Shown in pieces: positions 4,627 to 24,529 of a DNA stretch of 64,000 nt. The notes under the pieces are model-generated. The model had not been told where the DNA came from and did no database searches. It saw nothing but the letters and a program-made list of their open reading frames with translations. The stretch lies in assembly GCA_015233895.1 (NCBI GenBank), contig JADFXG010000001.1, positions 186,001 to 250,000 of the forward strand, given 5' to 3'. The translations under genes and the position numbers were made by a program. This DNA is from Nitrospirota bacterium. GTDB lineage: Bacteria; Nitrospirota; Thermodesulfovibrionia; Thermodesulfovibrionales; Magnetobacteriaceae. Position 1 is the first letter of the stretch. Every line of letters starts with the position of its first letter.

Positions 4627-5853
4627 ATGAGATTTAAGAAGATTTTAATAATCCTGTTGAGTATCGTCGCATGTCTTTCGATAATGGAGATTATAGCTGG
4701 CCGTATCCAGTTCTGGAAATATGAATACCCTTCAGACGAAATGTTTCATCTTGTGGACCATGACCTTCTGTTGCACCATAAATGGCACAAAAATGTGATA
4801 TGGCCTGATAATTACCGGAGCATTCCATATTTTATATACATTAACAGCCAGTCTTTTCTTGCACAATATGAAGTCTCAGTAAAAAAACCTAAAAATTTTT
4901 ACCGGATATTTTACCTTGGGGACTCCACAACCCAGGGAGTGGTATCTCCTATGTATAAAATGACTACGATAGTTGAAAACGAACTGAATGCCAGATATAA
5001 AGACCTTGGAAAAAAAATTGAAGTAATCAACACTGGAACCTCCTCCTTTGCAGTTTCTCAGTACATGCTGTTTATAGAGAATACATTGTTGGAGTATTCA
5101 CCGGATTTGATTGTTATTGACGTTGATATGTCTGATGTCGGCAATGATGCGTTTTACAAGACTTTAAGTACGTTTGACAAAGACGGGTATCCAATTATGA
5201 TAAATAAAAGCTACAGGGCGTATATACATTCTCCGGTGGGTTTTAAGAGGATGCCGCTTTTAATAGAAACAGCGCGTATTTTGGTAAACCATTCTAACCT
5301 TGCAGCTTATTTAGAGTATTTAGTTAGTAAATTAATTATTAAATTGACTAAAGGGGCAGGTTTGTTGGAGCAACAAGAAACACCAGAACAGCAAGCCTGG
5401 TCACGACACAACCCTGACAATAAAACATGGAAACAAAAAATAAATGAACCTGAAACATTTGACTGTCCTCTTGGCGGCGTAAATTGGGGTTCTGAAAATC
5501 CTACAGTTAAGGATAAAGAAGCAGTAGCTTATTCTATGAAACTTCTGGGCAGAGCGATTGATATCTGCAGAAAAAACAATATAAAAATAATTGTAACCGG
5601 AGCGCCAGGCCTCTGTCAGCTTACAGACACTTGTAGCTCTTTGCAACATAAAGACATTGAAAAGACAGCCCTTTTACATAAAGCATATTATTTGGACTCT
5701 GTTGAGGCATTAAGGCCGTCTGTTGAGGATGCTCCTGCTGACAAGTATTACTGGAAATCAGATACAGGACATTTCAATATCGGGGGCAATGCACTATGGG
5801 CAAAAGCACAGGTGGATTTCATAGTTAAAAACAATATTATAACCGGCAAATAA
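4627..5853 (+). CDS. SGNH/GDSL hydrolase-fold protein, probable polysaccharide O-acetylation partner
   Basis: 408 residues with one N-terminal membrane anchor or signal (residues 4-24). The SGNH block I reads GDST with Ser100 as nucleophile (residues 98-101). A VDMSDVGND segment lies at about 166-174 and the C-terminal dyad DTGH gives Asp379 and His382. In alginate and cellulose acetylation systems, AlgX/AlgJ/WssI-like SGNH proteins in the periplasm move acetyl groups received through an MBOAT protein. The MBOAT gene follows directly after 15 bases and a second SGNH-type gene comes after that, so a joint acetyl-transfer module is likely. The acceptor polymer is not fixed by this sequence. Confidence 0.75.
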   Translation: MRFKKILIILLSIVACLSIMEIIAGRIQFWKYEYPSDEMFHLVDHDLLLHHKWHKNVIWPDNYRSIPYFIYINSQSFLAQYEVSVKKPKNFYRIFYLGDSTTQGVVSPMYKMTTIVENELNARYKDLGKKIEVINTGTSSFAVSQYMLFIENTLLEYSPDLIVIDVDMSDVGNDAFYKTLSTFDKDGYPIMINKSYRAYIHSPVGFKRMPLLIETARILVNHSNLAAYLEYLVSKLIIKLTKGAGLLEQQETPEQQAWSRHNPDNKTWKQKINEPETFDCPLGGVNWGSENPTVKDKEAVAYSMKLLGRAIDICRKNNIKIIVTGAPGLCQLTDTCSSLQHKDIEKTALLHKAYYLDSVEALRPSVEDAPADKYYWKSDTGHFNIGGNALWAKAQVDFIVKNNIITGK

Positions 5854-5868
5854 AGACATAATTCTTTC

Positions 5869-7347
5869 ATGCTTTTTAACTCATATGTCTATTTGTTTGC
5901 CTTTTTGCCAGCAACAATCTGTGTCTATTTTTTTCTCAATAAGTTAAAAAAAACCTTCGCTGCAAGAGTCTTTCTTATTTTAGCATCTTTTATATTCTAT
6001 TCATGGTGGAATATCTGGGATTTGCCTGTTATAATTATAAGCGTAATATTTAATTACAGTATTGGACTAAAGCTTGGAAAAACAAATATTTCCAGCGACA
6101 GGAAACGATTGTTCATAACCGGTGTATCACTTAATATATTGCTGCTGATATTTTATAAATATACCGATTTTTTAATTTTAAACATAAATACGCTTCTTAA
6201 CACCAACATTAACACACTTAAACTGACCCTGCCCCTTGGCATCAGTTTTTTCACCATAACTCAGATTGCCTACCTGTCTGACGCATACAGACAGACGGTT
6301 AAAGAATATAAGGGTACGAATTATTCGCTTTTTGTGGCTTTTTTCCCTCACCTGCTTGCCGGCCCAATACTGCACCACAGAGAGATGATGCCGCAGTTTG
6401 ACAGGATGAGAAATAAAGTGTTTAGTTCAAAAAACACCGTAAGAGCTCTTGTCCTTATCGTAATAGGCCTTATAAAAAAAATTGCCATAGCCGATTATCT
6501 CTCTGCCTGGGCTGATTTTGGGTTTGACTCTGCAGGAAATCTCTCATTGCTTCAGGCATGGATAACCAGTCTGTCCTATACGCTTCAGATTTATTTTGAT
6601 TTTTCCGGCTACACCGATATGGCGTTGGGCTCTGCACTGTTGCTGAATATTCACCTTCCCCTGAATTTTAATTCACCCTATAAGTCGTTAAATATCCGTG
6701 AGTTCTGGAGAGCGTGGCATATGACCCTGAGCAGATTTCTGCGCGATTATCTATATATCCCACTGGGCGGAAACAGGTGCGGCACGGCACGGGTTAATCT
6801 CAACATCATACTCACTTTTATTTTAGGAGGGATATGGCACGGAGCCGGATGGGGATTTCTTATCTGGGGAGCCTTGCATGGTTTTGCATACGCTTTTTAC
6901 CGCCTCTGGCAAAGTACCGGTCTTAGGTTAGCTAGACCAATAGCATGGTTTTTAACTTTCAACTTTATAAACATAACATGGATTTTCTTCAGGGCAAAAT
7001 CATTCGCCGATGCTGTTAAGGTTATCAAGGGGATGGTTAATTTTGGCAGCACAGAGGTTAAAACATTTCTTAATACGGTTACTATGGATTTTATAAATCT
7101 GTTTCAGAATAAGGAGAAATTCCAGGCAATCAGCACTTTATGCAACTATTTTTCCTCAGATGGCGCTAAAATCATGTATCTCGCAATACTCATAACTGTG
7201 TGTGTTTCCTGCCGTAATTCAAATGATATTTCAAAGGACTTTTCCCCCAACTTAAGAAACGCTCTGTTGTTTGGTTTTTTAGGGGCAGTTGCCATAATGC
7301 TGCTCCACAAAGAGAAGCTCTCAAAATTTCTGTATTTCAATTTCTGA
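5869..7347 (+). CDS. MBOAT family O-acyltransferase (AlgI/WssH-like)
   Basis: A 492-residue polytopic membrane protein with the MBOAT signatures: FWRAWHMTLS at 279-288 (followed by RFLRDYLYIPLGGNR) and GGIWHGAGWGF at about 320-330 with the expected catalytic His324. Length and motif order match AlgI/DltB-type proteins, which pass an acyl group, usually acetyl, across the inner membrane for polysaccharide or teichoic acid modification. It sits between two SGNH-type genes, with 15-base and 14-base gaps, and next to a cellulose synthase operon on the opposite strand. Acetylation of the exported glucan or another exopolysaccharide is the best guess. Confidence 0.92.
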   Translation: MLFNSYVYLFAFLPATICVYFFLNKLKKTFAARVFLILASFIFYSWWNIWDLPVIIISVIFNYSIGLKLGKTNISSDRKRLFITGVSLNILLLIFYKYTDFLILNINTLLNTNINTLKLTLPLGISFFTITQIAYLSDAYRQTVKEYKGTNYSLFVAFFPHLLAGPILHHREMMPQFDRMRNKVFSSKNTVRALVLIVIGLIKKIAIADYLSAWADFGFDSAGNLSLLQAWITSLSYTLQIYFDFSGYTDMALGSALLLNIHLPLNFNSPYKSLNIREFWRAWHMTLSRFLRDYLYIPLGGNRCGTARVNLNIILTFILGGIWHGAGWGFLIWGALHGFAYAFYRLWQSTGLRLARPIAWFLTFNFINITWIFFRAKSFADAVKVIKGMVNFGSTEVKTFLNTVTMDFINLFQNKEKFQAISTLCNYFSSDGAKIMYLAILITVCVSCRNSNDISKDFSPNLRNALLFGFLGAVAIMLLHKEKLSKFLYFNF

Positions 7348-7361
7348 ACAATGAGAGCCGT

Positions 7362-8486
7362 ATGAAAATAAATATTTACAAAAAATGGATAATCATATTC
7401 TTTTTCATAACAGCTGCACCTGTTTTTTTCAATTTAATTATTGATTCAAACGGATATTTGCAGACTATAAAAATTCACGGGATAAATGCAAACAAGTATG
7501 AAATCATATCAGAGTATACAACAAAACTGTATTATGCAAAGCGGGCAACACCGGAGGCTTTAATGATTGGCACATCAAGGATGATGGTTTTTAAGCCCTC
7601 TGACGTACAACACTATATAAATATGAAAACTTATAACCTGTCCCTTTCCGGTTCAAATGTTTATGAACAGTTCAGCTATTTTTACTATATGGTTAAAAAC
7701 TACAACATAAGGTATGTGATTTTAAGTTTGGATTTTTTTTCATATAATCCTGAAAATAGAAACAAGATTGGTTTTAATGAAAGGCGGTTTAAGCATGGAT
7801 TTTTGCTCAGTGATTTTGAAGCGGAGCTTTTGGGGCTACAGAGTTTGAAATCAAGTATCGATACTGTAAGAAACAACATTACCGGGAAATGTGAACCAAT
7901 AAACTGGTCAGAGGGTTACAGCACGTGGTGTGAGAAGGAAAAAGCTCTGCAGGAATACGGCAATATCATAATCCAGCGAGACATGAAAAACTCCCTGCGG
8001 GTGTTTTCCACAGACCCGCTTGGTTATAATTCTGAGGCATTTAGAAATCCTGATTCAATTAACGATAACCTCCGGCTTCTGAAACGCATTGTTGACACTT
8101 GTAAGGAGCGGCGAATTACCCTGAAACTCTATATCAGCCCGGTGTATAAGAATCAGTTTGATTTAATATACGCAATGGGACTACGTAAGACTTACGAAAA
8201 GTGGAAATTTGAAATAGCTCAACTATCTGATTACTACGATTTTACAGGTCGAAACACTGTCACATCAGATCAAAGCCTATGGTGGGACACCTCGCACCTT
8301 AGAAGTCAATACGGTAAGTACATCTTCGCCCGTATCTTTAGCGATAACCAAACATCAGTTCCCAGGGATTTCGGCATACTTATGACAAAAGGCAATGTCA
8401 CACAAAACATTGCAAGACTCCACACTCAGGTTAGCTCTACAGACATAAAACAAATCCTGCAATTAAACAGCGATGACGACGATTAA
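7362..8486 (+). CDS. SGNH-like periplasmic protein of the acetylation module
   Basis: 374 residues with an N-terminal membrane segment (residues 8-26). A GTSR motif at 70-73 supplies a candidate nucleophile Ser72, and WWDTSH near the C-terminus supplies Asp309 and His312, the usual Asp-x-x-His order of SGNH enzymes. It is downstream of the MBOAT gene by 14 bases. It differs in sequence from the SGNH protein upstream, so the module would hold two non-identical SGNH proteins, as in alginate (AlgJ and AlgX). It ends in an Asp-rich tail (SDDDD) and converges with bcsC, 23 bases away. Confidence 0.65.
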   Translation: MKINIYKKWIIIFFFITAAPVFFNLIIDSNGYLQTIKIHGINANKYEIISEYTTKLYYAKRATPEALMIGTSRMMVFKPSDVQHYINMKTYNLSLSGSNVYEQFSYFYYMVKNYNIRYVILSLDFFSYNPENRNKIGFNERRFKHGFLLSDFEAELLGLQSLKSSIDTVRNNITGKCEPINWSEGYSTWCEKEKALQEYGNIIIQRDMKNSLRVFSTDPLGYNSEAFRNPDSINDNLRLLKRIVDTCKERRITLKLYISPVYKNQFDLIYAMGLRKTYEKWKFEIAQLSDYYDFTGRNTVTSDQSLWWDTSHLRSQYGKYIFARIFSDNQTSVPRDFGILMTKGNVTQNIARLHTQVSSTDIKQILQLNSDDDD

Positions 8487-8509: not shown

Positions 8510-11056
8510 CTATTTTTCAATTAGCTTAGCTCGCGGCGAGAAATATAAACGCAAGTTCAAACCAGCTGTCCACTCAGTGTAATCCGGGGACTTATTCAAT
8601 TCAAAAGTGCCGCCAACCGCCAAATATTTTGTAATCAGTTTGAGTCCATGAACGTTTATATAGTATCCTATTCCCTTTACGGTTGAGCCCTCGTAAGTGT
8701 TGCCTCCTACATGAAAATCCTCAGGATAGGGAAACATAGGTGCATCATCGCTCTGGGAATTAAAATATCCGATTGAAAACTGGCCGTCAATAAAGTAATC
8801 CCTGCATTGGTTCACTTGCAGGTGTGCAAACGGTCCAACCGAGTAATAAATGTCTGGGCTATAGTAACCCCCATATCCGTGAGTATAAAATCCAGAGTTG
8901 CTATTAAAATGTGAGTCTGTTACAGCAATTCCCGTTGAAAAACTTGTTGCGTCAGTCATAAATGTGGCACCAAGAGAGACATTGGCGTGATACGCAGAGT
9001 TTTCAATCACACCTATCCCATTATAAGAGTCATACCCTCCCTTTATTGATACCCAAAACGGTTTAAACGGTGTAATAACAATCTCTCCCTCAACTCCGGT
9101 CTTTACCACTCGTCCCCACTTGTCAGTGCCGTAGGGGTCTTTTAATCCAATATAGGACAGGATAGATTCTGCAATTGGTGTCCTATGGAGGTTAATATTC
9201 CAGTGTGCTGCCCCTATGCCGGCATCAAAAGTGATTGTTGGATCAATGGGGCCATTAAACGGTGTTGTACCCAGCTTTATGGCATAGTGAAGCTCTCCCT
9301 CTTTTTCCAGTTTTACCTCCGGTGTATAGACATTGGCTGAGGTAATAAGAGATACGGGGTTTAATACGTTTTTGTAGGTACCCGTAAATGGCAGTGGGGG
9401 AGCAGTACCTGAGAATAAGTGTTGATCTGTAAACGATACTGTTATTTTCTTATCGGGAGCTATTGTAAATGAGTAACTTACAGGAATTGAATATTCCCAA
9501 AGTCTTGAAAGCCCGCTGTCACCACTTTTAGTCCTCATAGAAGACGAAAGGGTAAGCAGCGGTTTTTCGTAATTATAGTAGCAGGAATCTGCACCGCAAT
9601 ATGAGTAAGCAGCCCGCATGGTTTCACCCTTGTCAAAAAAATAATCTCCGGTTAGTTTTTTAAGTTTTTCGTCATTCAGTGCCAACAGTGTGTTGGCAAA
9701 TGATTCTGCTTTTTTTATATCACCGCTGTCGTTATAGGCAGATAAGATTACCTGAGCAGTTGCCGGGTCCTTTTTAGTCTCAAAAACAGATAAAAACACA
9801 GGCAGTGAGTCGCTAACTCTTCCCTGTTTATATATGCTCCAGGCTAAAAGCGTTGTATCATTATCATCGCCACCGCTTATCTCTATTGATTTCAAAGTAT
9901 ATTGTTCGGCCTCTTTATAGTTTTGTGCATCAAAGGCCTGTGAGGCTTTCTCTTTATATATGCCGGCTTTTATGTCTTTAAAATCCGACACAGATTCATA
10001 CTTTCCTATCAAATCCAGAGCCTCGTCTGTCCATTGTAATTTGACAAGTGTGTATATCAGGCCTGAGACATAAACAGCGACACCGGGCTCCATAGCTTGA
10101 AGTTTTGAAAATCCCTCATAGGCTTTATCGTACTTTTCAGTGTGGTAAGCGTGCCATGCAAGTGCCGAAATTGCTGCAACATCATTAGGGTCAAGTGACA
10201 GTATTTTGTTTGCGATAGACTCGGTGTTTTCTTTATCATCATTAAGCTCATCGTGAAGCAGTGCAAGTTTTATCTCTGTAAGTGTTTTTGTATAACCTTT
10301 AGGCAGTTTGTCACGCTCTCCTTCAGTGTCAATAATTGATAAGACCTCTGCCAAAGACAGCATGGTCTTAAGAGAATAAAACACGCCCGTACGGATTCCC
10401 CATTCTTTCGGACAGGATTTAAGCAGTGTCTGAAAAATCTCCAGCGCCTCAGTTTTTTTATCTCTTTGGTTTAATGCTTCACCGGCATCAAAAAAAGTGC
10501 CTGGCAATTCACACTTCATTAAGTAGTGTTTATGTGTCTGTGTAAGATTGTGGAGCTCTGTAACGTTACCGGCTTTTACGGCTTCTTTAACCTGTTCAGG
10601 AAAAAATTCCTTATCTATTATTTCTTGCACCTTCTGACGGTCTTTACCCTCAAGCATATTTAGATATAATTCAGCCTTAACAAAATCTTTTTGGGCAATC
10701 ATCACCCATACAATGTCAGAGACAACATCTTGCAGCTTATAACGTTTATCAAGAAGTATATCATAATTAGAAAGTGCAAGCTCAGTCTTTCCAAGTTTTA
10801 CATAACAACGTGCCAATCCTAATGTTGCCTCTAAAACACTTTTTTTGAAGGTTTGAGCATATTTAAAGAGATCGGCGGCTTGTTTGTAGTTGCCTATTTG
10901 ATAATACTGCCAGCCCTTATAGGCAAAGTAAGAACCGTCATTTTTTTCATCACCTGCCGTCACATTATCTGCTGTCACATCCTCTGCAATAGCTTGATTG
11001 TGACATGACAAAACAACAACCGCAATAAAGACAAGCAGTGTTTTTATGGATTTCAC
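8510..11056 (-). CDS. bcsC: Cellulose synthase outer-membrane TPR/porin subunit BcsC
   Basis: 848 residues. An N-terminal signal sequence (residues 5-25, with a Cys at the end of the hydrophobic core that could be a lipobox) leads into TPR repeats over about 45-470. The C-terminal BcsC domain (about 530-848) shows the family block TPIAESILSYIGLKDPYG and a GKVVKTGVEG-like motif, then alternating beta strands typical of a 16-strand barrel. The TPR part binds periplasmic partners and the barrel lets the glucan cross the outer membrane. It is the last gene of the operon and overlaps bcsZ by 4 bases. It is shorter than enterobacterial BcsC (about 1150 residues) because it has fewer TPRs. Confidence 0.9.
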   Translation of the reverse strand: MKSIKTLLVFIAVVVLSCHNQAIAEDVTADNVTAGDEKNDGSYFAYKGWQYYQIGNYKQAADLFKYAQTFKKSVLEATLGLARCYVKLGKTELALSNYDILLDKRYKLQDVVSDIVWVMIAQKDFVKAELYLNMLEGKDRQKVQEIIDKEFFPEQVKEAVKAGNVTELHNLTQTHKHYLMKCELPGTFFDAGEALNQRDKKTEALEIFQTLLKSCPKEWGIRTGVFYSLKTMLSLAEVLSIIDTEGERDKLPKGYTKTLTEIKLALLHDELNDDKENTESIANKILSLDPNDVAAISALAWHAYHTEKYDKAYEGFSKLQAMEPGVAVYVSGLIYTLVKLQWTDEALDLIGKYESVSDFKDIKAGIYKEKASQAFDAQNYKEAEQYTLKSIEISGGDDNDTTLLAWSIYKQGRVSDSLPVFLSVFETKKDPATAQVILSAYNDSGDIKKAESFANTLLALNDEKLKKLTGDYFFDKGETMRAAYSYCGADSCYYNYEKPLLTLSSSMRTKSGDSGLSRLWEYSIPVSYSFTIAPDKKITVSFTDQHLFSGTAPPLPFTGTYKNVLNPVSLITSANVYTPEVKLEKEGELHYAIKLGTTPFNGPIDPTITFDAGIGAAHWNINLHRTPIAESILSYIGLKDPYGTDKWGRVVKTGVEGEIVITPFKPFWVSIKGGYDSYNGIGVIENSAYHANVSLGATFMTDATSFSTGIAVTDSHFNSNSGFYTHGYGGYYSPDIYYSVGPFAHLQVNQCRDYFIDGQFSIGYFNSQSDDAPMFPYPEDFHVGGNTYEGSTVKGIGYYINVHGLKLITKYLAVGGTFELNKSPDYTEWTAGLNLRLYFSPRAKLIEK

Positions 11057-12105
11057 AAATCGTTGCCCTTTTTAACGAGAAGGTAGAGGGTGTAGGAGTA
11101 GTAATTTTCTTTTTCGTTGGTTAGTTTATCTTGCGCTTCTTTAGATAGTTTAGCACTTAACTCCCCATCTCCGGACTTTGAAAAGGCAAAAGAATATATG
11201 GCATAAAACCCTGACGGAGCGGTGTCTGTGGAAACGGATGCTTTAGTTGCATTGTCAGAAAGATCAATCTGAGCCGGGATAGAACCTGCCTGCTTATATA
11301 TTTTAGAAATCTCTTTCAGACCCTCCGGATACGGAACAACTTTATCCAGTGAAAGGTAAAGAAAAGTTCTTATTGCATCATAACCAAACACCTGGGGGTT
11401 TTCACTGCTAAGTTGAAGTCCCTTACCGGTCAGGGCAATCCAGTCGCCTGGAAGCTTATACTTACTGAACTTACACTGCCCCAAAAAGGTAATGGAGTCT
11501 TTATATGTTTTTTCCCAGAATGCCTTGTCATCAACACTTGCAAACAGCTTGTATGCCGGAGGGATTATATATGAGGGATTTAACACTATTGAATCGTTTT
11601 TTGTAAATCCATAGTAGCCAGGCAAAAGAACGTTCAAGCCCTGCCATTTGACTGAAAGATTTGCTCTTATAGCCCCAACAATTTTTGTGCCCTCTGTCTT
11701 GTAAGCGTTGTTTTGCCACTTGTTAGCGGCCTTAATCAGGGCAAACGCTATTAGAACGTCGCCATCTGTGGCATTGTTGTAGTCAATCACATCCCACTTA
11801 TCGTTTGCTCTTTTCCCCCAGCTCCACACCGACAGATTGTCTTTTCTTAGCATTAGGTTGTTTTTTGTCCATTTATAGAGCTTGTCAAAGGTAGATTTGT
11901 CATTATACAAAACACTAAGCAGCATGCCGTAGCCCTGTCCTTCGGAGTGGCTCATCTGCCCCTGATAGAAGTCAACTACCCGACCGTCGGCCTGGATAAA
12001 TGTGGTTTTATATTTTTCCCAAAGCCCGTTATCATCTGCGCCGGATGACGTGCAGAAGAGCATTGAGAGTATTACACTAACCACTATTGTCCGTATTTTT
12101 ACCAA
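11053..12105 (-). CDS. bcsZ: Periplasmic endoglucanase, glycoside hydrolase family 8 (BcsZ)
   Basis: A 350-residue protein with an N-terminal signal peptide. The GH8 signatures HSEGQGYGM (catalytic acid Glu55) and YNNATDGD (Asp114, Asp116) are present, and the WTKNNL segment also matches the family. BcsZ cuts beta-1,4-glucan in the periplasm and is a standard accessory of bacterial cellulose synthesis. The start is TTG at 12105, supported by an AAAGGAGG sequence 7 bases upstream; it lies inside bcsB (29-base overlap), which indicates translational coupling. Confidence 0.92.
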   Translation of the reverse strand: MVKIRTIVVSVILSMLFCTSSGADDNGLWEKYKTTFIQADGRVVDFYQGQMSHSEGQGYGMLLSVLYNDKSTFDKLYKWTKNNLMLRKDNLSVWSWGKRANDKWDVIDYNNATDGDVLIAFALIKAANKWQNNAYKTEGTKIVGAIRANLSVKWQGLNVLLPGYYGFTKNDSIVLNPSYIIPPAYKLFASVDDKAFWEKTYKDSITFLGQCKFSKYKLPGDWIALTGKGLQLSSENPQVFGYDAIRTFLYLSLDKVVPYPEGLKEISKIYKQAGSIPAQIDLSDNATKASVSTDTAPSGFYAIYSFAFSKSGDGELSAKLSKEAQDKLTNEKENYYSYTLYLLVKKGNDL

Positions 12106-14245
12106 CGTTCAACCTCCTTTTTCTATATGCTTTCAATATAATATATAAAGTAGAACCTATGACTGTCACGGCTAATCCAATGGCTACATAGTATAGCCAC
12201 GGATAAACATACAAATACATATCCAGTTTTGATGTTGCACCTGATTTACCGGCAAAATATCTTCCTCCGACATTTAAAGAATTTACCTTAAAGTTTGGCG
12301 GAGTAAGGTCTATCAGGCTCAAGTCTCCTTTGCAATCTCCCTGAACATTAGGATCTAAAAGGGCATCAGAGAGCGCAAAAATATCTTTTGTCGTTGCGGC
12401 AGTCAATAGTATTGCTGTTCTGCCCTCGGCATATGGCGACTGAAATTCCATGATAGCGCCTTTACCCTCGCTTATGCTAACCGTTTGCTTACTGAGGGCA
12501 ATAGTTATCTCATCACTCCAGCTCTTTACAACAGGATATGGAATCACAGACTTGGCAGTGAGTTTAAGTGGTGTTAACTTTTTAATGTTTTCTGGCAGAG
12601 TGCCGGTGTCTCCAATTATGATAACTTCCCCTTTCCAGCTTATGGGATTAGTGTAGGTAAACTTTGTCTCAAACAGAGGGTAGCCGTTTTTTTGAGTAAT
12701 AAGTCCGATTAAGTTAAAAGCTGCGGCTATATTGTCTAAATTACCGTTTGTCAGATATATTAGTGACTCAAAACCATCCGGCCATCGTGTGACAGGAAAA
12801 CCGCTGCTCATAAAAAGTTCCAGCTTTGGTAAATCCACGATATGAGGCATTGCCGGAAATTTCATCGAGGATTTTCCGAATATGGTCAGAAAGAGGCTTC
12901 TGTCCTGAGGTAACTCACAATTCTTAGAGACCGAGGGCACCAATATGGGTTCAAAAGTAAGTATATTGGAACCCACTTTAAACATATGCGTAGGTATATT
13001 CATCTTGTAATCCTCAATGATTGCGCCATTTTTGTTATCAAGACTGATTGCAGAAACATGTACGTTGTTTATTAAAATATTCAAAACAGAATCGGACCTC
13101 ATCCCGGCACCATATGCGGTTGTCAGAAGAATCTCTGCGTATTGATTTGGTTTTATGAAAAAATCCGGCGACAGGCGAAAAGAAATGTCCTTAGACATTG
13201 AGTTAAATCCCCTAAAGGTATAATCCGGGAAATCCATGGTCTTAAAGGTGTATCTCTTGTTTGGAACGATTGTTTGCCTGCCTCCATAGAGGGTGATGTC
13301 AGGGAGAGTCAACTCAGAAATAGTCGTTTCACTGGTGTCTGGATATGGAAGCGAAATAACAGACATTGTTTCTGCTGCCAGTTTCACCTCATCTACGTTT
13401 TTACCGGAGATTACAAGAAGCATATGCTGCGTGTCAGCTTTTTCCCCGGCTGGTAAACTCATAAGTTTAAGAAACGGTCCCTTAATTTCACTTAAGGCTA
13501 CGCCTTTTTGCTTAAGATAATCAGTTATAAAGCTGCTTTCTCCCACGATAACATTGTCAACCCCTGGTTTAATATCTTTAGAGACAGTGAAGATCACCTT
13601 TTTATAGTCGAATTTTTTAGCAATGCTTGATGCCACTATGGCAACATTTGTTATCATGTCCTCTTTTGTGTTTGAAACAACAACGTTTATTTCGCCATAT
13701 GGCAGAATTTTGGGGTCAAACAGGAATTTATCAAGGGATGATAATTTCTGAGGCACGGGACGCAGGGAGTACTCAAGTTCCAAAAAAGCCTGGTCAAGCC
13801 TTAGCGTGGTCCAGAGCTCTTTGGCACACGTATCTTCGCACTCATTAGTATAGTGCTGGGCAACATCAAAAGTCAGGCGATTATAACCCGTCTCAAACAA
13901 AAGTTCCGGTAAAACTATTTTAGCACTTTTATCAGGAAACTGGGGATTGAGATTAAACTGCTCCACAGGAAAGCCGTTTAACCTGACAACCATGCGGGAT
14001 CTGTTGGGTAAGAGAGCTGTTGAGTTGGTGTAATTGAATTCAAGCACGGCTTTCTCCACTTTCCATCTCTCAGGAATTGCTATAGATATTTCAGCGGCAG
14101 CACTTGAGCATTTAAGATCCATTGCTTTAACGGGAGATAGCTTATATAAGGGAAGTTTGATTACCTCTGCCTCAGTAATTTGTATAGAGTAAAAGAGCCC
14201 TAAAAAGTTCATTGCTACCAGAGCAAATATGCTCTTTGCTTTCAT
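12077..14245 (-). CDS. bcsB: Cellulose synthase periplasmic subunit BcsB
   Basis: 722 residues with a signal peptide (residues 5-25), a large periplasmic beta-rich region and one C-terminal membrane helix (about 685-705) followed by a short basic tail. This is the BcsB layout: two repeats of carbohydrate-binding and flavodoxin-like domains anchored by a C-terminal helix that packs against BcsA. Sequence hallmarks include LEFNYTNSTALLPNRS near residue 70 and VRLNGFPVE. It would guide the growing glucan through the periplasm and is required for BcsA activity. It is placed between bcsA and bcsZ, 65 bases after bcsA. Confidence 0.92.
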   Translation of the reverse strand: MKAKSIFALVAMNFLGLFYSIQITEAEVIKLPLYKLSPVKAMDLKCSSAAAEISIAIPERWKVEKAVLEFNYTNSTALLPNRSRMVVRLNGFPVEQFNLNPQFPDKSAKIVLPELLFETGYNRLTFDVAQHYTNECEDTCAKELWTTLRLDQAFLELEYSLRPVPQKLSSLDKFLFDPKILPYGEINVVVSNTKEDMITNVAIVASSIAKKFDYKKVIFTVSKDIKPGVDNVIVGESSFITDYLKQKGVALSEIKGPFLKLMSLPAGEKADTQHMLLVISGKNVDEVKLAAETMSVISLPYPDTSETTISELTLPDITLYGGRQTIVPNKRYTFKTMDFPDYTFRGFNSMSKDISFRLSPDFFIKPNQYAEILLTTAYGAGMRSDSVLNILINNVHVSAISLDNKNGAIIEDYKMNIPTHMFKVGSNILTFEPILVPSVSKNCELPQDRSLFLTIFGKSSMKFPAMPHIVDLPKLELFMSSGFPVTRWPDGFESLIYLTNGNLDNIAAAFNLIGLITQKNGYPLFETKFTYTNPISWKGEVIIIGDTGTLPENIKKLTPLKLTAKSVIPYPVVKSWSDEITIALSKQTVSISEGKGAIMEFQSPYAEGRTAILLTAATTKDIFALSDALLDPNVQGDCKGDLSLIDLTPPNFKVNSLNVGGRYFAGKSGATSKLDMYLYVYPWLYYVAIGLAVTVIGSTLYIILKAYRKRRLNVGKNTDNSG

Positions 14246-14310
14246 ATTTAGTTCAGCATCTCATTTTTTGTAATTCTGGCAACAAAAATAACACAATTTC
14301 GATATATATG

Positions 14311-16569
14311 TCAAACAGTACCCCGGTTTGGCCTTAGATATTTCCACTGTCGTTTGATTAACTGAAAAATCATCTGAAAAACAGCTGCAAAGCTTTTTTT
14401 AGTGCCTGTTATTCCCAGGGTTAAGAGGACGAAAACTATCCTTAAGGTATTTGGAGTCTTTCTTCTTTTATTCCAGAAATCCACCCACCTTTGGCTGTCA
14501 CCATAAACCAACCCTACGATGTTTTTAAATGTTTCCTCATTTAAAACAATAAACTCACAACCACAAAGAATATAGGTTCCCTTTTTGAAAATTCTCTGAA
14601 CTCTTGCCTGAACAGAATATTGGTTTCCGTAACTATCACTAAAGGAGATGGTAACTTCATCAAGTTGTTTTAAAGAAACTGAAAGACCAAGCTCAACACT
14701 TGCGCCAGAGAGGGAGAGGTCAGTAATTAATCCCGCAACAGGTTCATTTGATTGCGGCAAGTAAACGCTTGTCTTATAATTTGCCCATAAACGATGATGG
14801 CGGCGCACTTGCCGGCGTTCAAAAAATGCTCCCAGCGAGGCCATTGCCAAAATTAAGTTAAAGACGCTCCATGCTGACGTAACAGCTATAACATCTCTGT
14901 ACAAAGGAAACTCAAACCACCTTATAATGGCAACCGGCACGGCTATGAACATTATTGTAGTCATAATTAAAAAAGGAATCGCCATTTTACTTAACGATTC
15001 ACTCTCGGATGTTTGGCCCTTAGGCGTCACCTTAAATGAAGGGGAACGAGGATTAAGCACCACGCCAATTACAGCAGGAAACAGATATATTGACTGTACG
15101 CTTTCAAACAGGTCTGAAAAGAACGGCCATCTGTACTTTCCTGAAATATACTCCGTAAGAATTAAGGAACTCAACAAGTGAGGTAACGCATAGATAAGCA
15201 CCTGAGATGTGGAGGCAAAAAATATCTTAAGGTTAAGCAGCAAAAAAGCTGCCGGTGCCACATAGAAAATAACCCTTGATATTCCAAAAAACCAAAAACC
15301 GCAGTCATTGATATAACAAATTAGCTGATAAAATTTAAGTCCCTTAATAAAAAGCGGGTTTTTCAAAATAAAAATCTGTACCATACCCTGTGCCCATCTG
15401 CTTCTTTGCAGGATAAAATCATCAAATGTCTCAGGGGAAAGACCGCAAACCATGGGGCGGCCATAGTATATGCTGTTATAACCCATGCCGTGCAAAGACA
15501 GTGCGGTCTCAGCATCCTCTGTAATTGTTTCTCCGCTAATGCCGCCAACCTCTACAAGGTACTTTCTTCTCATAATGGCGGCAGAACCGCAAAAAAACGA
15601 AGCATTCCAGAAATCAAGCCCGGGCTGCCCTCCGCGGTAAAACATCTCGTTTTCAGCTGGCGCATCCGCAAATACTGCTAGGTTTTTCTCCACTGTGCTT
15701 GAATTGATAAAAAAGTGAGGAGTTTGTACAAAGGCAAGTTTTTCATCTCTTATGAAATATCCAACGGTGTTTTTCAATATGTCTTTTGCGGGAACATGAT
15801 CGCAATCAAGAATCAGTATGAGGTCAGAATTAGTATATCCAAAAGCATGATTAAGATTACCGGCTTTAGCATGGATATTTCGTTCTCTTGTGATGTAACC
15901 TGCGCCAAACTCCCTGGCCATTCTTCTGAATTCATAATGACGCTCCCATGCCGCCTGAGAAAGCTTAGGATTGCTTCTTCTTGCCATAGTGCCGCCGTCA
16001 TCAAGCACATAGACGTGGAGCTTGTCTTTAGGATAATCTACCTGAAGCGCCGCAATTACCGTTACTTTGACTAATTCAAGGGGCTCATTATACGTTGGAA
16101 TGAATATGTCCACTGAGGGATATAAAGCAGTGTCAGCAGGCAGCGGTACAGGTTCATTTTCTGTGGGCCAGAGGCTTACAAAAAGCGACAGGAAATGTAG
16201 AGTAATCCCATAAAGTTCAGCCAGATACAGTAGCGCCATACCCATAAAATCTGAAATATCAGTATATATAAGCGTTTCAAAAGTCCGCCAGTACAGATAC
16301 CTCAGCGTTATGAGAGAAGCTATTAGCATAAAATGAATACGCCACGGAGGATATTTAAACTTTTTAATACGGTTAAAAACTATTAATATTGCTATCAATC
16401 CCCAACTGACTATTGCTTGCGCATAAACGGGCAGGAGTAAGCCGATGATATGGAAATACAGAAGCACAGCAGCGCCCAACGCGATATATATGCCAACTGT
16501 ATAGCCCCGCCTTGTTTGTATAAAGTGTTTGCGTATAAAGTGCTTAATTGGTGTCCTTATCAACTCCAT
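14311..16569 (-). CDS. bcsA: Cellulose synthase catalytic subunit BcsA with PilZ domain
   Basis: A polytopic family-2 glycosyltransferase that polymerises UDP-glucose into beta-1,4-glucan and exports it through its own channel. With the start at ATG 16569 (752 residues), the catalytic motifs are DDG at about 190-192, DCD 255-257, TED 350-352 and QRSRW 388-392. The C-terminal PilZ domain shows an Arg-rich motif (RRQVRRHHR, about 585-593) and DLSLSGA (about 617-623), matching the RxxxR and D/NxSxxG c-di-GMP contacts. The open frame can be extended to TTG 16629, but that would overlap the cyclase by 86 bases; ATG 16569 (overlap 26) or 16596 are more economical. No strong Shine-Dalgarno is visible, so coupling to the upstream cyclase is likely. 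Confidence 0.95.
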   Translation of the reverse strand: MELIRTPIKHFIRKHFIQTRRGYTVGIYIALGAAVLLYFHIIGLLLPVYAQAIVSWGLIAILIVFNRIKKFKYPPWRIHFMLIASLITLRYLYWRTFETLIYTDISDFMGMALLYLAELYGITLHFLSLFVSLWPTENEPVPLPADTALYPSVDIFIPTYNEPLELVKVTVIAALQVDYPKDKLHVYVLDDGGTMARRSNPKLSQAAWERHYEFRRMAREFGAGYITRERNIHAKAGNLNHAFGYTNSDLILILDCDHVPAKDILKNTVGYFIRDEKLAFVQTPHFFINSSTVEKNLAVFADAPAENEMFYRGGQPGLDFWNASFFCGSAAIMRRKYLVEVGGISGETITEDAETALSLHGMGYNSIYYGRPMVCGLSPETFDDFILQRSRWAQGMVQIFILKNPLFIKGLKFYQLICYINDCGFWFFGISRVIFYVAPAAFLLLNLKIFFASTSQVLIYALPHLLSSLILTEYISGKYRWPFFSDLFESVQSIYLFPAVIGVVLNPRSPSFKVTPKGQTSESESLSKMAIPFLIMTTIMFIAVPVAIIRWFEFPLYRDVIAVTSAWSVFNLILAMASLGAFFERRQVRRHHRLWANYKTSVYLPQSNEPVAGLITDLSLSGASVELGLSVSLKQLDEVTISFSDSYGNQYSVQARVQRIFKKGTYILCGCEFIVLNEETFKNIVGLVYGDSQRWVDFWNKRRKTPNTLRIVFVLLTLGITGTKKSFAAVFQMIFQLIKRQWKYLRPNRGTV

Positions 16570-17416
16570 GATGTAAGGTACGCTTCTGGGGAGCATCAGG
16601 AGCCGTAAACATATTGATACCCTTGACAAGCATAAAGACTATAAGAAACGTTAATACAAGATAGATTATCATTTTTGCATACTGGGAACTTTTTTTCTTT
16701 TCCGTTTTTACCGTGACAGTCTCGGCGGAAAGGTCTTTCTCTATTTCATTAGGGTTCCAATAGGCTTTGTATATCTTAAACTCGCCGGATTTTCCTTTAA
16801 GAGACGTTGTCTTAACAAACCTGCAGAATATTTCGTCCTTAGTCTCTCCGGCTGCGATTTTTGCGCTCACACGCTCTCTCATAGCATGGTATGTTTCCTC
16901 TGATATATAAATCTCACTGGGATTGGCCTGACTTTCAAATCTTGAGGCAACATTAACCACATCTCCAAATATGTCTGTTTTCTCCACAATGCCCTGCCCG
17001 GTATGTATGCCGATTCGAATAAGAATAGGGACTACTGATATTTTTGCAAGATTAAACTCATCAATTGCTCGTTGTATTGCTGCGGCTGTCTCTACTGCAT
17101 CAGAGGCATCCTCAAAATATGACATCGTGCCGTCTCCCATTGTTTTTACGAGTGTCCCATTGTTTTGGGATATGAGTGGAAACACAATGTCGTTGTGCTG
17201 CTTAAGTATCGTTCTGTGAAACATATCGCCGTGTTGTTCGGCAAGGGCAGTTGAGCCTTTAAGGTCGGTAAACATCACTGTTATGATTTTTACGAATTTA
17301 TTTTTGAATAACTCATCAAGCTTCTCACGTTGGGAGATAATATCCTCTACGCCTAACTGCTCTGCTGAACCCTCCTCTTGTGCGCTCTCTCCTGCAATGC
17401 CGTTTTTTTCCTCCAT
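16544..17416 (-). CDS. Class III adenylyl cyclase with C-terminal membrane helix
   Basis: A 290-residue protein: class III nucleotidyl cyclase domain (about 40-225) and a C-terminal membrane helix (about 249-267). Metal-binding Asp51 (FTDLKGS) and Asp95 (MGDGTM) are present. Substrate-specifying Lys91 and Asp148 match the adenine-selective pair, and Asn155 and Arg159 (VNVASR) are the transition-state residues. Known family chemistry therefore predicts ATP to cAMP. It is the first gene of the cellulose operon, with an AAGGAGG ribosome site before ATG 17416, and overlaps bcsA. A tail-anchored cyclase cytoplasmic domain would sit at the same membrane as BcsA. No sensory domain is visible. Confidence 0.85.
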   Translation of the reverse strand: MEEKNGIAGESAQEEGSAEQLGVEDIISQREKLDELFKNKFVKIITVMFTDLKGSTALAEQHGDMFHRTILKQHNDIVFPLISQNNGTLVKTMGDGTMSYFEDASDAVETAAAIQRAIDEFNLAKISVVPILIRIGIHTGQGIVEKTDIFGDVVNVASRFESQANPSEIYISEETYHAMRERVSAKIAAGETKDEIFCRFVKTTSLKGKSGEFKIYKAYWNPNEIEKDLSAETVTVKTEKKKSSQYAKMIIYLVLTFLIVFMLVKGINMFTAPDAPQKRTLHHGVDKDTN

Positions 17417-17510: not shown

Positions 17511-17539
17511 AGAATAACACAAATACGTAAATACGTCAA
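17511..17539 (-). promoter_or_regulatory. Sigma-70-like promoter for the cyclase-bcs operon
   Basis: On the minus strand, TTGACG (17539-17534) and TATTCT (17516-17511) are spaced by 17 bases. It lies about 95 bases upstream of the cyclase start, the first gene of the cyclase-bcsA-bcsB-bcsZ-bcsC run. Confidence 0.6.
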
Positions 17540-17696: not shown

Positions 17697-20297
17697 ATGG
17701 AGGAAAATATCACAACAACAAGCAATTACAGTCTAATCCGCAGTTTGCCGTTTTGGGGGTTAATTATCTCTGTGCTGTATGCAAGCTCTTTTTGGGGATA
17801 TTTGGTTTTTCATACCCTTGCTGAGCTGTTTTGTGTGATTATAGCATTTTGTATTTTTATTCTTTCCTGGAACACACGCCGGTATATGCAAAATAACTAT
17901 CTTTTCTTTATTGGCATTTCATACCTTTTTATCGGCAGTCTTGATATATTGCACACACTTACCTATGAGGGTATGAATTTAATACACACTCACAGTACGG
18001 GAGAGACAATCGAAATATGGATTTCTACGAGATACATTGAGAGTATTTCCCTGCTTATTGCCCCACTACTCTTATACAAGAAAAGACTCAGCGCTTTTTA
18101 TATATTTAGTGCTTATGTGATTGTGACCATGCTGGTGTTTGCCACAATTTTCATATGGAATAATTTTCCAGAATGTTATACAGAAAGAACCGGGCTTACC
18201 ACATTTAAAAAATGCAGTGAATACCTCATTTGCTGCATTTTAGCAGTTTCATTGCTGCTACTGTTTAGGAGAAGGAGTTTTTTCGATAAAGATGTTTTAA
18301 GGCTATCTGCCGCCTCCATATCTTTTGCAATACTGACAGAGCTATGCTTTACAACTTACATTGGTTTATATGACTCGATTAACATGGCAGGCCATTTTTT
18401 TAAGGTGTTCTCCTACTATTTCATTTATAGAGCGATAGTTGTGACGGGCATTAATAAACCATTTGACCTGTTGTTCAGAACTCTGAAAATAAGCGAGGAT
18501 TCCCTTCAAAAAATTAATACCGAACTCGAACAGAGGGTTGAAAACCGTACTATGTTGCTTTTGGAGGAGATTCATCAGCGGAAAAATATAGAGAGTAACC
18601 TTGCCCGTTTAAACCGTGTGTATGCCGTTGTAAGTGAGACAACTCATCTGATTGTGCACGTTTCCAATAAAGGAGAGCTACTGGATAAAATATGCAAGGT
18701 GGGTGTTGAACAGGGATCTTTCATGTTTGTAGCAATAATCAGATACAACGAGTATAACAATACTCTTGAACCTCTGACTTTTAACGGACATTCAGAGAGA
18801 TATCCGGACTCAGTGACCCTCGTTTCAAAGTGTGATGACAAGAACCCTGATCCGGTTCAAAGAACCATTCAGACTGGTACCTTCTACATATGCAATGACA
18901 TCAGTTCTAACGAACCCTGCGCTAAGAGGAAAGAAGAGGCGCTAAGGCAAGGGTATCAGTCTTATGCTGTGTTTCCCTTAAAAGTGTTTGAAAAAAACGA
19001 AGAAGCCATTATGTTTTACTCCGGGGAGCCGGATTTTTTTAGTGAAGAGGAAATCCATCTGCTTGATGAGTTATCCGGAGATGTTTCGTATGCTCTTGAA
19101 AATATGGAAAAGGAAAAGATAAAAAACCAGATAGAGCAGCAGAACAAAACGCTTGAAGAACAGCTTGTCCGTTCTCAGAAAATGGAGGTCATAGGGCAGC
19201 TTTCCGGTGGGATTGCCCATGATTTCAATAACATCTTATTTTCAATAACAAATTACATTTATCTCATGCTTAAGAACATGGATGAGGTACATCCACTAAG
19301 AAAATATGCCGAGGGCATACGGTTAGCCTCGGAAAAGGCATCTAATCTTACAAGGTCCCTTCTTGATTTCAGCAGAAAACAGGTAACTCAACCCAGAGTA
19401 GTTAATTTAAACGATGTTATATCGCACGTGGAGCCGATACTGAGGCGTCTGATTCCTGAGGAAACAGAGCTCAGAGTGGAACTAACAGATGATAACCCCA
19501 GCATAATGGCAGACCCCTCTCAATTTGAGCAGGTGCTTTTAAACCTTGTGGCCAATGCACGGGATTCCATGCCTGAGGGAGGATTTCTAATTATAAAAAC
19601 TGTGCTTGTTCAGCTTGACAGGCCGTACATTGGTAAAAGTCGCCGTGATGTCAAAGGCCCGTATGCTCTTTTAGTTGTGACAGATACCGGCTGCGGAATG
19701 GATGCGGAGGTTATGAGCAGGATTTATGAGCCCTTCTATACGACTAAAGAGATTGGCAAAGGGACAGGTTTGGGACTTTCCACAGTGTATGGAATAGTGA
19801 AACAGCATAATGGCCTGATTAACGTCTATAGTGAGCCAGAATTAGGTACATCTTTTAAGGTGTATTTTCCGTTAGCAAATATCAGAGCTGAGCGGTTGAA
19901 GGTAGTGGAAAAGGTAGAGGTAAGGGGCGGCGATGAGACAATCCTGGTAGTTGAGGATGACCCTGAGGTTAGAAAGATTGTGGTAGAGCTGCTGCACGAT
20001 GCCGGCTATAAAACTATAGAGACAGAAGACGGAAAGGAGGCTGTGGAAACTTATAAAACACACAGCGGAGAGATTCATATGGTAATACTGGACGTTATAA
20101 TGCCAAAGATGAACGGAGAACAAGCCTACGATGAGATGAAAGCTGTAAAACCGAGTGTAAAAGCATTGTTTATGAGCGGCTACACCTTTGATGTTTTGTC
20201 AGGCAGGGAGTTCACAACAGAGAATTTTGACTTTATATCAAAACCGTTATTGGCAGAGGAGTTCTTGTCAAAAGTCAGGGAGATTCTTGATAAGTAG
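17697..20297 (+). CDS. MASE3-GAF hybrid histidine kinase with receiver domain
   Basis: 866 residues. An N-terminal membrane sensor of about 7 helices (15-250) has the MASE3-type LFIGSLDILHTLTY and STRYIES motifs. It is followed by a coiled coil (about 262-305), a GAF-like domain (about 310-470), HisKA with His508 in GGIAHDFNN, HATPase_c with N-box NLVANARDS (616-624), G1 DTGCGM (663-668) and G2 GKGTGLGLS (687-695), and a receiver domain with phospho-acceptor Asp799 (ILDVIMPK). It is an inner-membrane two-component sensor. No separate response regulator with an output domain is next to it. Its 3' end overlaps the convergent kinase gene by 30 bases. Confidence 0.9.
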   Translation: MEENITTTSNYSLIRSLPFWGLIISVLYASSFWGYLVFHTLAELFCVIIAFCIFILSWNTRRYMQNNYLFFIGISYLFIGSLDILHTLTYEGMNLIHTHSTGETIEIWISTRYIESISLLIAPLLLYKKRLSAFYIFSAYVIVTMLVFATIFIWNNFPECYTERTGLTTFKKCSEYLICCILAVSLLLLFRRRSFFDKDVLRLSAASISFAILTELCFTTYIGLYDSINMAGHFFKVFSYYFIYRAIVVTGINKPFDLLFRTLKISEDSLQKINTELEQRVENRTMLLLEEIHQRKNIESNLARLNRVYAVVSETTHLIVHVSNKGELLDKICKVGVEQGSFMFVAIIRYNEYNNTLEPLTFNGHSERYPDSVTLVSKCDDKNPDPVQRTIQTGTFYICNDISSNEPCAKRKEEALRQGYQSYAVFPLKVFEKNEEAIMFYSGEPDFFSEEEIHLLDELSGDVSYALENMEKEKIKNQIEQQNKTLEEQLVRSQKMEVIGQLSGGIAHDFNNILFSITNYIYLMLKNMDEVHPLRKYAEGIRLASEKASNLTRSLLDFSRKQVTQPRVVNLNDVISHVEPILRRLIPEETELRVELTDDNPSIMADPSQFEQVLLNLVANARDSMPEGGFLIIKTVLVQLDRPYIGKSRRDVKGPYALLVVTDTGCGMDAEVMSRIYEPFYTTKEIGKGTGLGLSTVYGIVKQHNGLINVYSEPELGTSFKVYFPLANIRAERLKVVEKVEVRGGDETILVVEDDPEVRKIVVELLHDAGYKTIETEDGKEAVETYKTHSGEIHMVILDVIMPKMNGEQAYDEMKAVKPSVKALFMSGYTFDVLSGREFTTENFDFISKPLLAEEFLSKVREILDK

Positions 20298-23053: not shown

Positions 23054-24529
23054 CTAAGACTGAGAGTTGATGAAAATCTTGATAATTTCGCTATGCTCAG
23101 TTGAAAGCTCTATAAATTCCATACCGATAAGAGAGTGGTCGTACTTGCGCTGAATGGTTCTTGACAGGGCGTGTATGTTTTCGAGAGTTCTGTTTAGGAG
23201 CCGGAAAGTTACATAGAAATCCTTATTGAATTGGAATTCCTTGTCAGTTGAGGTTTGAATTCTGATAAAACACCCTTTAAGGCTTATATTTAAAATTACG
23301 GCCTCATAAGTTGAAATAGTGGCAAGCTCCAGCACCTTTGCAGGAATAGTGACCTGCACTCTTAGTTGCTTGCGCTTTGCGACCTTTGGGCGTTTAAACG
23401 CACCGTATCCCCATAGCTGGAAGCGGTTTATCACAACTTTTACCTTTGATGGGGGAACTATGGTTTTTACGGCATATTCGTCCAGCGATGTATCTCTCTT
23501 AATTGCTACTGTCGGCACTGTGTTATTTTGCCTGAGGACTGTGTAGGCAATAGGAGCGTTGATTCTCTCCCCTCTTTGTGTGACAATAGCAGTTTCATTA
23601 TTTGCCAGCTGCACGTAGGTGCCGGGAGGATAAATGCCAAGGTTTTTTATAAACACAGCAGAAATATCAGGATCCAGGCTGTCGTTTTTATTGAGGAACA
23701 GCTCCTTTAAAGCAACCGTAGGAAGCATTGGCTGGCGGTAATACCTGCCGGAAACTCTGGCACAATAGATGTCAGCCAGCGCCACTATTCTTGATACCTC
23801 AGCTATCGCCTTGTCTTTAAGCTTTGAGGGATAGCCGGTACCGTCAAGCATCTCATGGTGCTGAAGCACGGCTGTAAGCCACACGTCATCTGTAACGCCA
23901 TGCCGTTTCAAGAGCTTAACACCCTCTAACGGGTGTTTGTTTATCTCCTCTTTCTGAAAGGGAGAGAGCGCCTCCTCCTGAAAGTGAAGTCTTTCCTGAA
24001 GTTCTACCATAGCTATATTCATAGTTAAAGCAGCACATATCAGAGATGTACGGCCCTCCTGACTCCAACCCATTTTCTTGGCAACTATTTCGCACACTAT
24101 GGCTGTGTGAATGGGATGCTTGACCGTGTATCGGGACTCATGTTCAAGCATAATGGTTCCAAGGGCTAGGTCCTCATCAATAGAGCAGACATCCTGTACA
24201 ATTTTGGCAGAATTGTGGATTTTCTTCTGAAGCTCTCTTTCTCTTTTTAGGTTTTCAAATAATCCATCTATTTTTATGTTTAAAAGGTCAAGGTTTTCAA
24301 ACGGCAGGTCAGAGTCAACTATCTTCTCTATGTCAATGTCTTCGTCCTCTTCAAGTACAGCGTCATCTCCCTCTGGATCTATCACAAGTGCGCGGGAGAT
24401 TTTGGCAACATCCTTTTCGGTCATGACATAACCGCGCCCAAGCATCAATTGGCCGTTTTCGTCATAAATCGGCTTCTCGAGGGGTTTACCTACCATAGAC
24501 CCTGATATCCTGAGTACTCGCATCTTCAT
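23054..24529 (-). CDS. HD-GYP-like protein with degenerate HD dyad and C-terminal PilZ domain
   Basis: 491 residues. The central region matches HD-GYP c-di-GMP phosphodiesterases: conserved HPIH (138-141), HPLEG (199-203) and HHEMLDGTGYP (224-234). The HD dyad expected at about 169-171 (normally LLHDIGK) reads LTMNIAM, so the metal-binding His-Asp is lost and catalysis is doubtful. The C-terminus (about 390-491) is PilZ-like, with KRKQLR and NISLKGC in place of RxxxR and D/NxSxxG. Best reading: a c-di-GMP receptor rather than an enzyme, cytosolic. It is divergent from moxR. Confidence 0.8.
   Translation of the reverse strand: MKMRVLRISGSMVGKPLEKPIYDENGQLMLGRGYVMTEKDVAKISRALVIDPEGDDAVLEEDEDIDIEKIVDSDLPFENLDLLNIKIDGLFENLKRERELQKKIHNSAKIVQDVCSIDEDLALGTIMLEHESRYTVKHPIHTAIVCEIVAKKMGWSQEGRTSLICAALTMNIAMVELQERLHFQEEALSPFQKEEINKHPLEGVKLLKRHGVTDDVWLTAVLQHHEMLDGTGYPSKLKDKAIAEVSRIVALADIYCARVSGRYYRQPMLPTVALKELFLNKNDSLDPDISAVFIKNLGIYPPGTYVQLANNETAIVTQRGERINAPIAYTVLRQNNTVPTVAIKRDTSLDEYAVKTIVPPSKVKVVINRFQLWGYGAFKRPKVAKRKQLRVQVTIPAKVLELATISTYEAVILNISLKGCFIRIQTSTDKEFQFNKDFYVTFRLLNRTLENIHALSRTIQRKYDHSLIGMEFIELSTEHSEIIKIFINSQS

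Follow-up and report, generated by a model that had tools for sequence, protein, structure and literature searches.

A tail-anchored class III nucleotide cyclase linked to cellulose synthase genes in four bacterial phyla

The window, by which we mean the whole stretch of 64,000 nucleotides of Nitrospirota DNA analysed here, carries a class III cyclase gene followed on the same strand by bcsA, bcsB, bcsZ and bcsC, in that order (Table 1). BcsB, BcsZ and BcsC are all encoded in the cluster, as looked for in a Bcs operon. BcsA (CelA) scores 823.4 bits against a family cut-off of 699.1 and carries the PilZ domain ascribed to it in the preliminary description, with its RxxxR and DxSxxG motifs present. 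A consensus scan of the region for promoters gave five sites, against 1.5 in shuffled sequences, and a promoter-like site lies upstream of the cyclase. The intergenic region is common to the cyclase and a divergent MASE3-GAF hybrid histidine kinase gene, which is preceded by a perfect TTGACA-17-TATAAT site and occurs in each of the genus's four genomes, with 70-95% identity in the other three. Convergent with bcsC is an MBOAT acyltransferase gene flanked by two SGNH/AlgX-like genes without Pfam matches, possibly a cellulose O-acetylation module, which is present in the congener G003 and has other genes in its place in G001. Some 6 kb from the cyclase lies a gene for an HD-domain and PilZ protein, possibly a c-di-GMP phosphodiesterase, that is kept beside the cluster in G003.

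Table 1. Coordinates of features in the window and at related loci (numbered within each stretch)
Feature	Position	Strand	Remarks
Tail-anchored class III cyclase	16544..17416	(-)	Heads bcs operon; catalytic aa 43-184, TM aa 249-267, tail Arg279
bcsA, catalytic subunit + PilZ	14311..16569; alternative starts 16629/16596/16569/16548	(-)	TIGR03030 823 bits; PF07238
bcsB	12077..14245	(-)	PF03170 2.6e-102
bcsZ, GH8 endoglucanase	11053..12105	(-)	PF01270 1.5e-67
bcsC, TPR + outer-membrane domain	8510..11056	(-)	PF05420 7.8e-48
Cyclase-bcsA junction	16544..16558	(-)	SD-like AAGGA 16558-16554 and possible ATT start 16548, overlapping cyclase stop TAA
Promoter-like site upstream of cyclase	17511..17539	(-)	TTGACG, 17 nt, TATTCT, TG before second hexamer; consensus scan only
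MASE3-GAF hybrid histidine kinase	17697..20297		Divergent from cyclase
HD-domain + PilZ protein	23054..24529		PF13487
MBOAT region	4627..8486		MBOAT gene 5869..7347 (PF03062)
Gene directly after bcsA	L058 (G075) 9127..10122; L059 (G080) 13446..14507; L078 5214..6173; L080 13057..14085		One family
Kinase-cyclase fusions	L156 4258..6225; L159 667..2685; L160 9403..11481; L084 9299..10864		
BrkB membrane protein + C-terminal cNMP-binding domain	L157 13761..15014; L155 1934..3229; L153 3352..4611		Candidate receptor

The cyclase reading frame starts with ATG just 3' of the Shine-Dalgarno sequence AAGGAGGT and encodes 290 amino acids. Its PF00211 match (2.2e-21; 76.7 bits against a curated cut-off of 21.9) places it in class III. 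The ATP-type residue set named in the preliminary description is present at exactly the positions given there: D51 and D95, which we take to be the metal-binding pair, K91 and D148, presumably the substrate pair, and N155 and R159, presumably the transition-state pair. All six are found without exception in the 14 rows of one alignment (A3) and the 21 rows of another (A4, which left out three kinase-fused Nitrospinota members), suggesting that catalysis matters. The C-terminal membrane anchor noted earlier is likewise borne out, as the sole hydrophobic segment of the protein (Kyte-Doolittle mean 2.57), which falls within a long helix (residues 245-271) of the AlphaFold model. Mean pLDDT in this model is 79.6, with values close to 90 over most of the catalytic blocks. 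A further helix (18-41) precedes the catalytic domain, and by fold the model is most similar to the adenylyl cyclases Ma1120 and Rv1900c. Beyond the anchor, the tail arginine is invariant in 21/21 aligned family members.

The extent of any overlap between the cyclase and bcsA depends on the start codon of the latter. Because the open bcsA frame reaches upstream into the cyclase gene, the start of bcsA could be TTG 16629 (86 bp overlap), ATG 16596 (53 bp), ATG 16569 (26 bp) or the rare codon ATT 16548 (5 bp), which stands behind the Shine-Dalgarno-like AAGGA. Two congeners, G001 and G003, have stops in the bcsA frame across the region of the TTG, and G003 has an in-frame TAG two codons past the ATG equivalent to 16569 (G003 is a metagenome bin, where a base error at that TAG is possible). 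The AAGGA and ATT at the end of the cyclase gene are common to the window, G001 and G003, the cyclase stop being TAG in G003. These three genomes would thus allow bcsA translation to begin at the ATT, with an overlap of 5 bp. In two genomes from another family of the order, G075 and G080, cyclase and bcsA adjoin with gaps of 28 and 8 bp, respectively. The adjacency given in the preliminary description is therefore firm, while the long overlap depends on the start chosen and is ruled out as a key feature by the stops in G001 and G003; absence of the overlap in relatives had been named there as a refutation, and it is the neighbourhood that is conserved, not the overlap.

Conservation of the neighbourhood was followed among class III cyclases of other genomes. 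The build of the window's protein (a catalytic domain followed by a single TM helix close to the C-terminus and a short tail) was recognised in 24 of 74 cyclases sorted by profile score and hydrophobicity, from Nitrospirota, Nitrospinota, Elusimicrobiota and Pseudomonadota. Of these 24, 21 are located in bcs clusters, a rate that may be inflated, since bcs-linked members served to seed the search model. Five arrangements are found. The cyclase is directly upstream of bcsA in twelve cases (the window, G001, G003, G075, G080, L078, L080, L081, L083, L084, L086 and L162), after bcsZ in four (L153, L154, L155 and L157, with bcsG next in both tested), further downstream on the same strand in one (L087), convergent after bcsC in three (L156, L159 and L160, with bcsA on another contig for L156 and L159) and on the opposite strand near bcsZ in one (L089). 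It is thus not directly upstream of bcsA in nine of the 21 cluster members, and the link therefore does not depend on co-translation, on which it had originally been based. Of the members outside clusters, L088 (G238) and L158 (G697) come from genomes with bcsA on another contig, and that of G687 lies among housekeeping-like genes; no bcsA was found in a search of the G687 genome.

Among the three congeners, the cyclase adjoins bcsA in G001 (85% identity) and G003 (92%), and a genome search of the third, G002, found neither cyclase nor bcsA; the contig with its MASE3 kinase (70% identity) ends 1.9 kb beyond, and the adjoining gene is different. Scanning GTDB genome contigs with a five-row alignment (A1) gave 24 loci, with bcs genes on the stretch in Elusimicrobiota (L078 and L080), Methylobacter (L081, L083 and L086), a Pseudomonadota bin (L084), a Nitrospirota bin (L087) and Nitrospinota (L089). 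Bcs genes were found at none of the 11 loci with other cyclase builds (L085 and L090-L099); L082 and L088 are contigs of less than 4 kb. Plasmid spread of the cyclase was rejected, tblastn having given only two distant partial matches. The PilZ motif is present in 18 of 19 linked BcsA rows, the nineteenth, L089, being partial in the comparison, and loss of c-di-GMP control in the linked synthases was rejected on this ground.

The association extends to whole genomes. Of 230 genomes of the window's class, five have the tail-anchored build, and every one of these also has bcsA, which is itself found (E<=1e-60) in 37 of the 230. Nitrospinota have the build in 11 of 24 genomes, ten of them with bcsA (present in 12/24), and Methylococcales in three of 251, all with bcsA (34/251 at E<=1e-150); in Elusimicrobiota it was seen in one of 198 drawn genomes. 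Fisher tests of co-occurrence, which ignore relatedness and share the bcs-linked seeding of the model, give p values of 8e-5 for the class, 6e-4 for Nitrospinota and 2e-3 for Methylococcales.

Phylogenetic analyses place all 25 BcsA rows from genomes with a tail-anchored cyclase in one clade, which spans the same four phyla (support 94/99 in a 39-row tree; SH-aLRT 99 in a quick 66-row tree, which left out a divergent second BcsA of L083). The clade also holds the BcsA proteins of G688 and G694, which are without a tail-anchored cyclase. The BcsA rows of 28 of 31 Methylococcales genomes with bcsA and without the tail-anchored cyclase fall outside it, so the BcsA proteins adjoining the Methylobacter cyclases have their closer relatives in other phyla. 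The cyclase tree, built from 72 of the 74 rows after two partial rows were dropped, shares several subclades with the BcsA tree: the window genus; G075 and G080 with Elusimicrobiota; Methylococcales; G689-G692; G703-G705; and G232, G238 and G697. Pairwise distances of the two proteins are correlated (r=0.83 for 23 pairs, with 0 of 9999 permutations as high; r=0.46 for 14 representatives, with 3 of 9999). The label "tail-anchored" requires four changes on the cyclase tree, where other cyclases, including FHA-fused ones, nest among the members; this topology would be compatible with a single origin of the build or with several. With 21 of 24 linked, a single BcsA clade and common subclades, the cyclase gene shows the conserved linkage and co-inheritance with bcsA looked for in a Bcs accessory subunit, and is best described as a co-inherited accessory gene of one cellulose synthase lineage.

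Other genes recur in these clusters. A gene of one family directly follows bcsA at four loci and precedes bcsB in G075, G080 and L078. The L058 copy matches PggH (PDB 7d62) at 4.6e-86, and we therefore predict a pGpG-hydrolase-type enzyme in the cellulose operon, PggH being the hydrolase of pGpG in the last step of c-di-GMP breakdown; a Pfam search with three copies gave no match. In the bcs clusters of G703-G705 and L084 the tail-anchored cyclase is preceded, in one fused protein, by a protein kinase domain, and by eye the L084 kinase seems to be without the usual catalytic motifs. Of four closely related Nitrospinota genomes, three (G689, G690 and G692) encode a BrkB protein with a cNMP-binding domain some 3-5 kb downstream from the cyclase gene, and the restriction of this protein to the three excludes it as a fixed cluster member in our scan, which used a strict motif expression that can miss members. 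G691 (L165 and L154) and G692 (L168 and L157) each have two bcsA copies, of which only one per genome clusters with the cyclase.

Bacterial cellulose synthase is a textbook c-di-GMP enzyme. That bcs genes travel with the cyclase in several unrelated bacterial groups suggests a second nucleotide signal beside c-di-GMP. The functional link drawn in the preliminary description is likely, because the association of a cyclase at the head of the window's bcs operon is conserved well beyond this genome; what falls away is the long overlap and co-translation as its basis. Our main reading, to which we give a probability of about 60%, is that the cyclase is a dedicated accessory enzyme of one BcsA lineage, held at the membrane, where it would form cAMP from ATP either alongside the BcsA-BcsB complex or jointly with it. 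Its catalytic domain would be cytoplasmic and probably homodimeric, held at the inner membrane by the single C-terminal helix, with the short tail in the periplasm; the anchor would place it at the membrane where BcsA and BcsB sit. As the PilZ motif of BcsA is kept, the cyclase would add to c-di-GMP control and not replace it, cAMP being a second signal on a synthase that keeps its c-di-GMP switch. Its most likely role would be to couple operon or complex status to the cyclic-nucleotide-binding regulators of the cell, as a reporter on the synthase, as its regulator or by feeding a CRP-type loop; the 25 matches to cNMP-binding domains in the window's genome supply possible receptors. Counting against this reading are the cyclase of G687, which has the same build although no bcsA was found in that genome, the BcsA proteins of G688 and G694, which fall in the clade without a tail-anchored cyclase, and the FHA-fused cyclases nested among the members. 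If this is true, some cellulose machines, those of one BcsA clade, have a second nucleotide signal as an integral part. They offer a setting in which the meeting of cAMP and c-di-GMP at one complex can be tested directly, including Methylobacter L083, whose record carries a strain title and not that of a metagenome bin.

A stronger form of this proposal, which we hold to be tentative at best, makes the cyclase a true subunit of a dual-nucleotide synthase: the TM helix and tail would dock onto either BcsA or BcsB, cAMP formation and the activity of the synthase would be coupled, and the module would have reached at least four phyla by inheritance or transfer. Less probable than the main reading is a purely regulatory feedback, in which the enzyme would feed a general cAMP pool, and CRP-type transcription control would act on bcs and other genes without contact with the synthase. 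The 25 cNMP-binding-domain matches speak for this reading too, and the varied position of the cyclase gene demands no complex; for other bacteria, PMC4686702 describes cellulose genes governed by CRP/FNR-family proteins, and biofilm genes governed by CRP-cAMP. However, feedback alone leaves the conserved anchor and the invariant tail arginine unexplained. Another product (cGMP, cCMP or cUMP), or a nucleotide sensor with little turnover, seems improbable to us. PF00211-type cyclases with products other than cAMP exist, one Ma1120 structure holds GTP according to its title, and the Lys/Asp pair predicts ATP as the substrate while falling short of proof, residues giving no certain specificity; yet the ATP-type pair and both metal aspartates are invariant, and the nearest folds are adenylyl cyclases. 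A chance neighbour without functional meaning, as might be suspected given 12 first-look class III cyclase candidates in the genome and a sampling that began from the window's gene, is very improbable in the face of linkage in four phyla and five arrangements, subclades common to both trees and the bcs-free loci of other cyclase builds.

The preferred reading, an accessory cyclase of one BcsA lineage, can be set against known systems. In the open-access literature, as covered by titles and the starts of abstracts (most subscription papers and the main bcs reviews lie outside this scope), we found no description of a bcs-linked cyclase, and we know of no Bcs accessory subunit that is a class III cyclase. 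The mycobacterial class III adenylyl cyclases Ma1120 and Rv1900c (LipJ) are alike in catalytic fold, at 28-31% identity; the TM-score by target of Ma1120 is mostly near 0.9, and LipJ is the best NCBIfam match of the window's protein, far below its cut-off. Their structures are of the catalytic domains of other proteins, whereas the C-terminal anchor, the tail and the bcs linkage belong to the present family. The nearest paralogues in the cyclase tree are FHA-fused class III cyclases of the same phyla (labelled FHA by eye, not by Pfam), which are without the C-terminal anchor and tail, and none was found near bcs genes where the stretch was long enough. Standard bcsABZC operons have the same BcsA (CelA and PilZ), BcsB, BcsZ and BcsC, to which the window adds the cyclase gene. 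BcsE of E. coli binds c-di-GMP and is not a cyclase. With BcsF, the single-span membrane protein of the E. coli module (as described in PMC11379886), it forms an analogous pairing of a nucleotide-handling protein and a single-span membrane protein at the synthase, a comparison that we make as analogy and without a claim of homology.
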